Assembly: GCF_014647155.1 (NCBI RefSeq) | Contig: NZ_BMOQ01000003.1 | Location: forward strand, 186,001 to 250,000 | DNA length: 64,000 nt | Reading direction: 5' to 3' | DNA from: Halarchaeum nitratireducens | GTDB lineage: Archaea; Halobacteriota; Halobacteria; Halobacteriales; Halobacteriaceae | Shown here: piece by piece, positions 4,846-33,940 of the stretch | Numbering within the stretch: the stretch's first letter is position 1 | Layout of the letters: each line of letters opens with the position of its first letter | Translations under genes and position numbers: made by a program | The notes under the pieces: generated by a model | The model's input: the letters and a program-made list of their open reading frames with translations, nothing else | Database searches by the model: none | What the model was told of the DNA's origin: nothing

Positions 4846-4980
4846 TTACTTCCACTCGGTGTAGCCGCACTTCCCGCAGTGCTCGCGGTCCGAGTGATCC
4901 GCGAGGAAGGTGTCGCCACAGCGCGGACACTGGGTCTTCGACGCCGTGCCGTCGTCGTTGTAGTAGTCGGCGCGGGACAT
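4846..4980 (-). CDS. rps27ae: 30S ribosomal protein S27ae
   Basis: 44-residue zinc-ribbon ribosomal protein. The sequence starts [11 protein letters not shown] and carries [23 protein letters not shown], two CxxC pairs that bind one zinc ion. Length matches archaeal S27ae, which lacks the ubiquitin part of the eukaryotic fusion. Its ATG shares one base with the TAA of rps24e (TAATG), so the two are co-translated. Kae1-Bud32 starts 17 bases after its stop. Confidence 0.95.
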
Positions 4981-5291
4981 TACTCCTCAGCCTCCGCTTC
5001 CTCGGCCCCCTCGGCCTCGATCTTGTTGCGTTCGAGCATGTGGCCCTGCTCGACGTCGATGGCGGCGTCCGGCGACTCGTAGACCTTCGCGTAGCCCACG
5101 GTCTTGCGCATCCCGAACTTCGTGTCGAGGCTGCGGACGACGACCTCGTCGCTGTCCTTGTCCAGCGTCGCCGCGAGGGAGTCGCGGACGGAGAGACGGG
5201 ACGGCGTCGCCTCGTCGTGCGTGATCTCGAACTGGACCTCCTGTCTGTGGAGGAGCGGATTGCCCTCCTCGCTCAGGATTTCGATTTCCAT
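4980..5291 (-). CDS. rps24e: 30S ribosomal protein S24e
   Basis: 103 aa small-subunit protein. It has the family start [18 protein letters not shown], the central basic/aromatic run [18 protein letters not shown], and an acidic Glu/Ala tail typical of halophilic versions. First gene of the rps24e-rps27ae-kae1/bud32 group. A TTTTACT element near 5319-5326 (minus strand) lies about 30 bases before the ATG and is the likely promoter. Confidence 0.95.
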
Positions 5292-5340
5292 GATCAGTTG
5301 TCATCCACTAAGGCGCCGAACCGAGTAAAAGCATTACGAA

Positions 5341-5520
5341 CGACCTTTTGCAGCGCTCGGCGCGGCTTCGCCGCGCCGTCGCTTGCAAAAGCTCGGCCAA
5401 AAGCGCTGTACGACCCCGTAGGGGTCGTTTGCGCCTCGCCTGACGGCGAGCGAACCGCGACTCTACCGGGCTCTCCGAGCCACTCGGGTCGCGGACACTG
5501 GCGACGTGGATCGGTCGGTC
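5341..5520 (+). repeat. Structured intergenic element, copy A
   Basis: Member of a four-copy family in this window. It opens with CGACCTTTTGC, then a stem GGCGCGGC/GCCGCGCC (5359-5377), then GCAAAAGCTCGGCCAAAAGCG. Further stems are ACGACCCC/GGGGTCGT (5410-5428) and CTCGCC/GGCGAG (5435-5450). The last module is an outer stem CCGCGAC/GTCGCGG (5455-5461 with 5488-5494) enclosing GGCTC/GAGCC. It ends near GGATCGGTCGG. This copy lies between divergent genes, unlike the other three, which follow stop codons. An open frame on the minus strand here is not credible as a gene. Confidence 0.75.
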
Positions 5521-20488: not shown

Positions 20489-20666
20489 CGGAGTGACGGC
20501 TCACTCGCGCGCTAGCGCGAGGCCGACGAGCCACTGACGGTGGCGAGGAAGGCTTTTGTCCGCGGAACGCGCCGCGTTCCGCGGGATCAGCGAACGATCT
20601 CCGATCGCTCGCGGAGGTCGAGCTCTTGCTGTGCGCGGCCTTCGGCCGCGCTTGCAAAAGGTCGCG
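20489..20666 (-). repeat. Structured intergenic element, copy C
   Basis: On the minus strand, directly after the L40e stop, the sequence runs GCGACCTTTTGC, a stem GCGCGGCC/GGCCGCGC around AA/TTCGG loops (near 20634-20652), then GCAAGAGCTCGACC. These correspond box for box to the start of copies A and B. A second strong stem, CCGCGGAACGC/GCGTTCCGCGG, lies at 20560-20584. The 3' double-stem module of the other copies is not clearly present, so this copy is partial or diverged. Confidence 0.6.
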
Positions 20667-23692: not shown

Positions 23693-24289
23693 ATGAGCGA
23701 CCCCGACGGGATGGACGGCCTCTGCGTTACAGCCTGCCGGAAGTGTCCCGCTCTCGTCGACTCCCGTAGCCGCATCGTCAACGGCGTCGGCCCCGACGAC
23801 GCCGACGTCGTCTTCGTCGGCGAGGGACCGGGCGCGAACGAGGACGAGCAGGGCGAGCCCTTCGTCGGCCGCAGCGGCGACGTCCTCGACGACGCCCTCG
23901 ACACGCACGGCCTCCGCAGGCGGGACGTCCGCATCACGAACTGCGTGCGCTGTCGCCCCCCGGAGAACCGCGATCCGAGCGCCGAGGAACTCGCCAACTG
24001 CCGGGCGTATCTCGACGCCGAGCTCGAAGCCATCGATCCTGATGTCGTCGTCGCGCTCGGCAAGGTCCCCGCCCAACACCTCCTCGGACGCGACGTCGCC
24101 GTCACGAACGAAGCCGGGACGATCGAAACCGTCTCGATCGGTGAGACGCGCCTCGACGTCCTCGTCTGCGTCCACCCCGCCGCGACGCTCTACGACCGCT
24201 CGCAGAAGGACACCTTCGAGGGCACTATCGAGAAAGTCGCCACCATCGTCGGCGCCGAGGGCGGCCAGTCGAGCCTCGGGGACTTCTAA
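23693..24289 (+). CDS. Uracil-DNA glycosylase, family 4 (Fe-S type)
   Basis: 198 aa DNA repair enzyme that removes uracil arising from cytosine deamination. Motif A is GEGPGANEDEQGEPFVGRSG (about residues 43-62). Motif B is VHPAATLY (His near residue 162). The [4Fe-4S] ligands are CRKCP near the N terminus and CVRCRPPENRDP in the middle. Cytosolic/nucleoid. The stop codon is followed within two bases by structured element B. Confidence 0.93.
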   Translation: MSDPDGMDGLCVTACRKCPALVDSRSRIVNGVGPDDADVVFVGEGPGANEDEQGEPFVGRSGDVLDDALDTHGLRRRDVRITNCVRCRPPENRDPSAEELANCRAYLDAELEAIDPDVVVALGKVPAQHLLGRDVAVTNEAGTIETVSIGETRLDVLVCVHPAATLYDRSQKDTFEGTIEKVATIVGAEGGQSSLGDF

Positions 24290-24290
24290 A

Positions 24291-24468
24291 CGACCTTTTG
24301 CTCTGCCCGCCGGCTTTCGCCGGCGCTCGGCAAAAGCTCGGCCAAAAGCGCGTCGCGCTCCCTACGGTCGCGCTCGCACCTCGCCCTCCGGCGAGGGAAC
24401 CGGCGACCTACCGGGTCCTTCGGACCACTTGGTCGCCGGACGCTATCCACCTGGATCGTTCGGTCTGT
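24291..24468 (+). repeat. Structured intergenic element, copy B
   Basis: Begins one base after the UDG stop codon with CGACCTTTTGC. Stems: GCCGGC/GCCGGC (24309-24324), then GCAAAAGCTCGGCCAAAAGCG, CCTCGCC/GGCGAGG (24379-24396), and the 3' double stem with outer arms CCGGCGACC/GGTCGCCGG (24400-24408 with 24431-24439) and inner arms GGTCC/GGACC (24414-24426). It ends with GGATCGTTCGG. Compared with copy A, arm sequences differ but pairing is kept. Confidence 0.75.
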
Positions 24469-24932: not shown

Positions 24933-25008
24933 GCACGCGCTCTCTATCTAATGTTCAATCGCTGCTCTATATCTAACGTTGGTTGAGGGTCGCGGCGCGG
25001 TCAAGCGT

Positions 25009-25126
25009 ACTCGCGCGAAGCGCGAGTTTCACCGGTCGCCTCCGGCGACCGGCCTTTTTCACCCATGTTTTTGCGGTACGGGGGTCGCCGCAGGCGACCC
25101 CCTGCCGGAAAAAGATGGAGGGGAAA
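25009..25126. repeat. Second intergenic element family, copy 1 (upstream of hisH)
   Basis: A chain of strong stems: ACTCGCG/CGCGAGT (25009-25027), CCGGTCGCC/GGCGACCGG (25032-25052), then CTTTTTCACCCATGTTTTTGCGG, and GGGGGTCGCC/GGCGACCCCC (25080-25102), followed by GGAAAAAGATGG. It fills most of the gap between the orphan gene and hisH. It shares the order GTTTTTG - GGGGGTCG stem - GGAAA - GA - ATGG with the copy after hisH. Confidence 0.6.
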
Positions 25127-25158: not shown

Positions 25159-25818
25159 ATGAGTACGCAGTCTCCCCGCGAGACGACGGCGGACGTCGTC
25201 GTCGTCGACTACGGTCTCGGGAACCTCCGGAGCGTGACGCGCGGTCTCGAACGCGCGGGCGCGGCCGTGGAGATATCCGACGATCCCGAGGCGCTCACCG
25301 ACGCCGACGGCGTCGTCCTCCCGGGGGTCGGCGCGTTCGGCGACGGCATGGAGAACGCCGGTCCCTTCAGGGAGGCCCTGCGCGACGTCGCGGCCTCGGA
25401 CACGCCGCTGTTCGGCATCTGCCTCGGGATGCAGATGCTCCTCGACACGAGCGAGGAAGCCGATCGCGAGGGACAGGGCGACGTCGAGGGCCTCGGATTG
25501 ATCCCCGGGACGAACGTCCGCTTCGACGATCCCGACCTGAAGGTCCCGCACATGGGGTGGAACGAGCTCCACGTCGAGCACGAGCACCCGCTCGTCGCGG
25601 GCGTCGAGGGCGAGTACGCCTACTTCGTCCACTCCTACTACGCCGAGCCCGACGATCCGACGCACGTCGTCACGACGACCGACTACGGGACGGACTTCGC
25701 CTCCGTGGTCACGAACGACGACGGCACCGTCTTCGGCACGCAATTCCACCCCGAGAAGTCGGGCGAGACCGGTCTGCGGATCCTCCGGAACTACGTCGAC
25801 CTCTGCGCGGAGTCGTAG
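25159..25818 (+). CDS. hisH: Imidazole glycerol phosphate synthase glutaminase subunit
   Basis: Glutamine amidotransferase that feeds ammonia to HisF in histidine biosynthesis. 219 aa. VVVDYGLGNLRSVTRGLERAG starts the fold. The catalytic triad is Cys in FGICLGMQML (about residue 93) plus His and Glu in FGTQFHPEKSGE. ATG 25159 gives a short Ser/Thr head before the conserved strand. The gene stands alone, without other his genes, and is flanked on both sides by related stem-rich elements. Confidence 0.95.
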   Translation: MSTQSPRETTADVVVVDYGLGNLRSVTRGLERAGAAVEISDDPEALTDADGVVLPGVGAFGDGMENAGPFREALRDVAASDTPLFGICLGMQMLLDTSEEADREGQGDVEGLGLIPGTNVRFDDPDLKVPHMGWNELHVEHEHPLVAGVEGEYAYFVHSYYAEPDDPTHVVTTTDYGTDFASVVTNDDGTVFGTQFHPEKSGETGLRILRNYVDLCAES

Positions 25819-33664: not shown

Positions 33665-33936
33665 AGAAAAACCGCAGCGGGCCGAACGATCAGCGAGCGG
33701 TGCCGCGGATGTTCGCGCGACGAGCGGCTCGGTAGAGCCCGGTAGTCGCGCGATTCCGGAGCGACGAAATCGCTCCGGTCACGCTCATTCGCGCTGCTCA
33801 CTCGCGAAGCCACCGAGCGCGAAGCGATCGCGCTCGGCGCGGACCAACGCGGCGCGCAGCGCCGCGGCGGGAGCACCGATGCTTTCGTCGTAGCTTTTGC
33901 CGAGCGCCGGCAGAGCCGGCGCGCAGAACAAACGGT
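33665..33936 (-). repeat. Structured intergenic element, copy D
   Basis: On the minus strand, four bases after the thermosome stop: CGTTTGTTCTGC, stem GCGCCGGC/GCCGGCGC (33903-33924), CGGCAAAAGCT, a long central block of GC-rich stems (33755-33895), then the 3' double stem: outer arms CGCGCGAC/GTCGCGCG (33714-33721 with 33745-33752), inner arms GGCTC/GAGCC (33726-33739). It ends with GATCGTTCGGCC. It contains the same modules as A and B with a larger middle. It fills the 300-base gap between the small membrane protein and the thermosome gene. Confidence 0.7.
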
Positions 33937-33940
33937 ACTC

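Follow-up and report, generated by a model that had tools for sequence, protein, structure and literature searches.

Archaeal transcription termination is usually described as the work of a short T-tract together with a cleavage factor, and it does not require a hairpin. The enterobacterial REP and BIME sequences are dispersed extragenic palindromes, often located directly past stop codons, with imperfect and variable stems. Haloarchaeal MITEs, including the palindrome-associated elements (PATEs) of Haloquadratum, are non-coding, dispersed and hairpin-containing. In Haloferax volcanii, T5C ended 95% of transcripts and one hairpin alone 59%, with hairpins observed upstream of 503 termination sites (PMC7237163). 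The HF1/HF2-like haloviruses carry named intergenic repeats that are AT-rich and contain promoters (PMC7230728).

We have analysed a window of 64,000 nt (the whole stretch of DNA under study) from Halarchaeum nitratireducens, which carries a dispersed extragenic element belonging to two families with the same layout. Like REP/BIME, the element consists of dispersed palindromic repeats clustered at gene 3′ ends, often directly after stop codons; unlike REP/BIME, it is archaeal, has four or five modules in fixed order, abuts its neighbour exactly and also occurs at the edges of tRNA genes, RNase P RNA and promoters, and its boxes differ by eye from the enterobacterial ones. With the PATEs it shares a non-coding, dispersed, hairpin-containing character, but it has no terminal inverted repeats (in alignment P1 and the tail are not inverted copies), no general target-site duplication (flanking repeats of at least 7 nt in 12 copies vs 6.3 in permuted controls, some flanking direct repeats being local gene-end duplications) and no counterpart among the phages, plasmids and viral contigs searched. 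These three results speak against the miniature mobile element with symmetric ends that the first-pass annotation, made from the window alone, had offered as one option. The terminators of H. volcanii are alike in having a T-tract at gene ends, with hairpins within 10 nt upstream of many sites, but they are short signals (PMC7237163), whereas here the T-stretch at the gene end (CTTTTGC in family 1; CATCTTTTTCC in family 2) lies inside a homologous multi-hairpin element whose orientation is fixed and which is also located upstream of promoters. The HF1/HF2-like repeats (PMC7230728) likewise are intergenic repeats of the haloarchaeal world, but a search of the phage collection for the element gave nothing. 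Searches against Rfam 15 returned only tRNAs above the gathering threshold in the 64-kb window and only tRNAs and RNase P RNA above threshold at 16 element loci; copy B produced chance-level matches at permissive E-values. The earlier remark that this is not a named family agrees with the Rfam result, and the open-licence papers searched contained no matching description, although one in a subscription paper is possible. Our best explanation, for which we consider the chances about even on the sequence evidence, is that each copy would be a modular, oriented transcription-boundary element, i.e. a bidirectional terminator/insulator.

A full copy of family 1 starts at a gene edge with ACGACCTTTTGC, a variable GC stem and GCAAAAGCTC, which form helix P1; in P1, CTTTTGC pairs with GCAAAAG and there is a C·C mismatch near the helix base. 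The linker GRCCAAAAGC leads to P2 (outer GC pairs and a variable tip) and then to P3, which is CTCGC..GCGAG or a substitute. P3 is separated by GAA from P4, with outer arms such as CCGGCGACC/GGTCGCCGG, inner arms such as GGTCC/GGACC and an internal loop placing TACCG opposite RCTC. On the 3′ side of P4 are ACGCTAGCC and a tail around GTGGTTCGTTCGG. Elements are 110–260 nt long, with module order and orientation fixed; in some copies extra hairpins stand between modules or within loops. The ordered boxes and arms described earlier for copies A to D were all found in place in the sequence and are real parts of the element; what had been missed is the CTTTTGC/GCAAAAG pairing as P1, and P2 and P3. 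The sense CTTTTGC lies within about 10 nt of the gene end, and its T4 is intact in 68 of 76 copies; the sense T4 was lost with the paired A4 kept in six cases, and the reverse was seen in three (p 0.5). Two kinds of small double-hairpin insertions are nested in elements (L011, L018, L195, L084, L153, L166, L179 and L190; L010, L017, L150, L170, L172, L188 and L307), one kind ending GTGGTTCGA..TCGAACCAC; they recur across genera and resemble mini mobile palindromes.

The first-pass annotation had counted four copies. The homologous family is real, but those four are only part of about 30: in the H. nitratireducens genome copy B as a query matched 25 places (best E-value outside its own locus 2e-28); with copies A and D the numbers were 20 and 8. 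R1, a covariance model of the 3′ part built from 18 copies, detected 30 places at E<=0.05 and 27 at E<=1e-4, and R2, a model of the 5′ hairpin, also detected 30. With some 3,000 genes in the genome and an element at only about 30 of them, this sparseness weighs against the terminator reading, as do some of the empty orthologous sites described below. The 27 strong R1 matches all fall on contigs C1, C3, C4 and C5, for which a uniform spread would give a chance of about 2e-8, and none is on C2 or C6–C27, which suggests that the elements are confined to a core chromosome. The covariance-model search, which had been recommended at the outset, found the family beyond the window and across Halobacteriaceae: R1 has matches in 24 of 26 genomes of this family, in all seven sampled genera, and hardly any outside it. 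The 5′ module (R2) has a patchy distribution that extends to several further families of Halobacteriales; no sampled member of the phylum outside this order had a match. The same genes carry the element across genera, with 23 genus-pair overlaps vs 1.9–4.8 expected in a comparison set partly biased by exact-pattern search; recurrent hosts include the thermosome, aRF1, S-adenosylmethionine synthetase and CDP-archaeol synthase, all four with Pfam support, and DnaJ.

Within the window, copy A is a full element on the + strand at 5340–5520 (R2 71.9 bits, R1 86.9 bits), with P1 at 5340–5404, then P2, then P3, P4 and tail at 5433–5520. No stop codon precedes it; instead it adjoins the promoter side of a − strand ORF of 103 aa (4980–5291), with its P1 edge 49 nt upstream of the start at 5291. 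This ORF is tentatively read, by eye, as ribosomal protein S24e. The site is orthologous in three more Halarchaeum genomes, and the copy is retained in every species examined. Copy B, also full and on the + strand (24290–24468; P1 24290–24349, P3-P4-tail 24378–24465), begins 0 nt past the stop codon (24287–24289) of a uracil-DNA glycosylase (UDG) gene at 23693–24289 on the + strand (Pfam PF03167, E=7e-32); at the orthologous site the Halarchaeum genome G003 has a decayed element and G002 has none. Copy C (20489–20665, − strand) is partial, with P1 at 20613–20665, an extra double hairpin, P2 and P3 and without the P4 double stem; it begins 5 nt past the L40e stop codon. Copy D (33680–33939, − strand; P1 33881–33939, P3-P4-tail 33680–33776) has an extra hairpin module and begins 2 nt past the stop codon of a thermosome subunit. 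The orthologous sites of both C and D are empty in G002 and G003, and thermosome genes of other genera do have the element. The L40e site in species without the element has a short T-rich stretch past the stop codon; no obvious substitute sequence was seen at the empty UDG site of G002 or the empty thermosome site of G003. The earlier statement that three copies begin near stop codons (UDG, L40e, thermosome) stands for B, C and D after a Pfam check.

The window also contains one copy of the second, Halarchaeum-specific family, missed earlier, at 25005–25118 on the − strand (CCATCTTTTTCC-hairpin-GCAAAAACATGGGTGAAAAAG-hairpins). A + strand gene at 25159, by eye presumably HisH-like, has its start codon 40 nt downstream of the edge of this copy. 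The boxes of this family differ from those of family 1, while the layout is the same, T-tract/hairpin/double-A-tract, and several copies have the P4 module in common with family 1. H. nitratireducens has 10 copies with at most one probe mismatch (seven exact), each other Halarchaeum has 3–7, and none was found in 55 other genomes searched. A stem position pairs as CCAT/ATGG or CCGT/ACGG (A:T 13, G:C 7, four exceptions). The family obeys the same placement rule, after stop codons, after tRNA ends and at promoter edges.

Most of 161 copies have their P1 edge directly against a functional boundary, and the opposite (right) edge is not flush. Among 93 Halobacteriaceae copies, P1 lies −2 to +5 nt from the stop codon in 54 of 68 with a same-strand left gene, and 13 of 25 with a divergent left gene sit 38–49 nt upstream of its start codon, counts that rest on a simple gene finder (it overlooked the UDG gene beside copy B). 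In an independent set, drawn from Halorussus marinus, two Halobacterium genomes and two genomes of another family, P1 lay −2 to +5 nt from the stop codon in 43 of 53 copies, and the count for the spacing from a divergent start codon, mostly 38–49 nt, was 7 of 15. An automatic rule applied to the 161 copies placed 104 at protein 3′ ends and 22 (about 14%) at promoter edges; a TATA-like tract was present within 20 nt in 13 of these 22 vs 10 of the 104. Other copies stand flush after RNase P RNA and after tRNAs.

Several arrangements were observed around these sites. A duplicate of a tRNA 3′ end occurs 100–140 bp below the tRNA gene, with the element starting at or a few bases from the duplicate (tRNA-Val at L024, L111 and L136; tRNA-Leu at L273, L282 and L308; tRNA-Arg at L296 and L305); the arrangement resembles an attR-like integration scar or what is left of a second tRNA after decay. 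Elsewhere elements lie between a gene 3′ end and a ∼30–45 bp duplicate of that end (L100, L156, L090), sometimes as tandem arrays with a period near 100–130 bp (L144, L192, L250). In several genera a motif close to TTAGTGTTCCGGGCGTACAYT immediately precedes the element (three times in L084, and in L085, L184 and L226); this motif, which matches nothing in Rfam, may be where a haloarchaeal RNA not yet described has its 3′ end. At L009, positions 833–1660, the convergent HisG and TBP elements are separated by ∼850 bp of DNA that is low in GC, looks foreign and contains a lipoprotein-like ORF.

It had been claimed that pairing holds while bases change, and the covariation check called for at that time was run on P4. 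In 110 distinct P4 sequences 95.4% of cells are paired, and changes on both sides occur in 12 of the 14 pairs; shuffles score 0.167 for covariation against 0.471 for the real alignment, a value that 0 of 500 shuffles reached, though the alignment was fitted to the structure and so both the pairing and the covariation figures lean towards structure. When the P4 partner was slid by one to three columns the score was <=0.096. The claim is thus borne out, with the signal above shuffle background. Part of the 'covariation' has another source. At the copy A site in three species P2 and P3 are alignable and the P1 stems are unrelated, and in 29 orthologous pairs P1 likeness is no higher than in unrelated pairs, with weak ortholog signal in P2 (p 0.0015) and P3-P4 (p 0.024). 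The P1 stems have been swapped whole at fixed sites, so that stem replacement contributes along with compensating point changes; from this pattern, recombination between copies is probably involved in their spread or renewal.

The structure is constrained equally on both strands. Counted on fixed alignment pairs, G·U mismatches are as rare as A·C mismatches (P4, 24 vs 26; P1, 6 vs 7), the outcome expected if the structure is needed in both RNAs, and a role in the sense RNA only is therefore not supported; the folding z-scores against dinucleotide shuffles are alike, −4.6 and −4.5. A hairpin with T>=4 directly behind it was found in 108 of 155 copies when the antisense strand was read; for the sense strand the count was 14 of 155, which is the level of the shuffles (2–18). 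Two apparent asymmetries were discarded: a sense-strand bias in a first mismatch pass over long hairpins (12 vs 1) was a small-number effect, given the counts on fixed pairs, and a lower antisense folding energy (p 6e-22) reflected composition, the dinucleotide-shuffled z-scores being equal.

If the copies are two-way boundaries, they could work as follows. The P1 edge would be fixed at the limit of a gene, i.e. a stop codon, the 3′ end of a tRNA or RNase P RNA, or the upstream edge of a promoter. A polymerase leaving the gene would meet the T-tract at once, and a polymerase from outside would meet the GC-rich P4, P3 and P2, two T-tracts ∼11 bp apart (CTTTTGG..GCTTTTGC in family 1; CTTTTTCACCCATGTTTTTG in family 2) and then P1. 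The element would end the gene's own transcript and halt antisense or read-through transcription; P1 points towards the protected gene, and in both placements the outside polymerase would encounter hairpins and then T-tracts. T5C is present on both strands in family 2, whose CTTTTTC matches the T-stretch plus C signal of H. volcanii; family 1 has T4G, a caveat for the terminator reading, as the Haloferax tests used the longer T5 and the signal there ends in C where family 1 has G. Of the options raised at first, 'processing or termination signal' fares best, with termination the part that fits, in the form of a two-way boundary. In its favour are the placement of the P1 edge, the antisense hairpin plus T signature, a second family that reaches the same design and placement with other boxes, and the T-rich stretch at L40e sites that lack the element. 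The sequences show the anatomy, copy number, placement, pairing with changing bases, strand-symmetric constraint and antisense signature directly; that the copies terminate transcription, and that they are retained for this reason, we infer.

The main rival is a selfish, non-autonomous palindrome (REP/BIME- or MITE-like) kept just outside genes and promoters by its insertion machinery or by selection against harm, with a structure serving mobility and an incidental terminator effect; we consider it unlikely, though with a probability that has to be taken seriously. The copies are dispersed and differ in presence at orthologous sites within Halarchaeum (C and D empty in two species, B in one), P1 stems at orthologous sites are no more alike than at random sites, near-identical P1 stems recur within Halorussus and Halolamina genomes, and tandem copies and nested double-hairpin insertions occur. 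Yet neither a linked transposase nor a longer element with these ends was seen, the lack of terminal inverted repeats, of general target-site duplication and of copies on phages, plasmids or viral contigs is awkward for a mobile element, and the same genes host the element across genera. Within-genome homogenisation was looked for in Halarchaeum and not found: copies within a genome are no more alike than copies of different genomes. A correct terminator reading would still allow that the copies arose by selfish REP-like spread.

The strand-symmetric constraint also fits selfish palindromes or a role at the DNA level, and it weighs against a sense-strand 3′ UTR element, in which hairpins stabilise the mRNA, guide 3′-end processing, bind a protein or release an sRNA. 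Such a role, of which the first-pass annotation had a 3′ UTR/sRNA version, accounts for the strong folding (mean z −4.6), the covariation and the fact that about two thirds of the copies begin at a stop codon in sense orientation, and REP elements do protect bacterial mRNAs by such hairpins. We regard it as quite improbable: 22 of 161 copies are upstream of promoters without a sense gene to serve (one such site is kept in four Halarchaeum species, with stems intact in those read), copies also follow tRNA and RNase P RNA, G-U is not in excess over A-C in the stems and the z-scores are equal on both strands. A boundary site at the DNA level, which would absorb supercoiling at the edges of busy transcription units, either by cruciform extrusion or by binding a chromatin protein or a topoisomerase such as gyrase, agrees with strand-symmetric palindromes, with placement at both 3′ ends and promoter edges and with the many housekeeping hosts (thermosome, TBP, aRF1, S-adenosylmethionine synthetase); E. 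coli BIMEs bind gyrase. As it leaves the conserved unpaired A-tracts (antisense T-tracts), the strict orientation and the antisense hairpin plus T signature unexplained, we find it very improbable.

With the bidirectional terminator/insulator as our preferred reading, we put forward the wider proposal, tentatively and at somewhat below an even chance, that oriented palindromic insulators at gene boundaries form a class of their own in haloarchaea, with two separate sequence families of bidirectional terminators, exchange of stems between loci by recombination and retention at the same housekeeping genes across families. If this is true, archaea would have a defined insulator part, positioned to within a few bases of stop codons, tRNA ends, RNase P RNA and promoters. 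The element would make testable how dense genomes separate convergent and divergent transcription, and whole-stem replacement at fixed sites would be a natural record of exchange between repeats.
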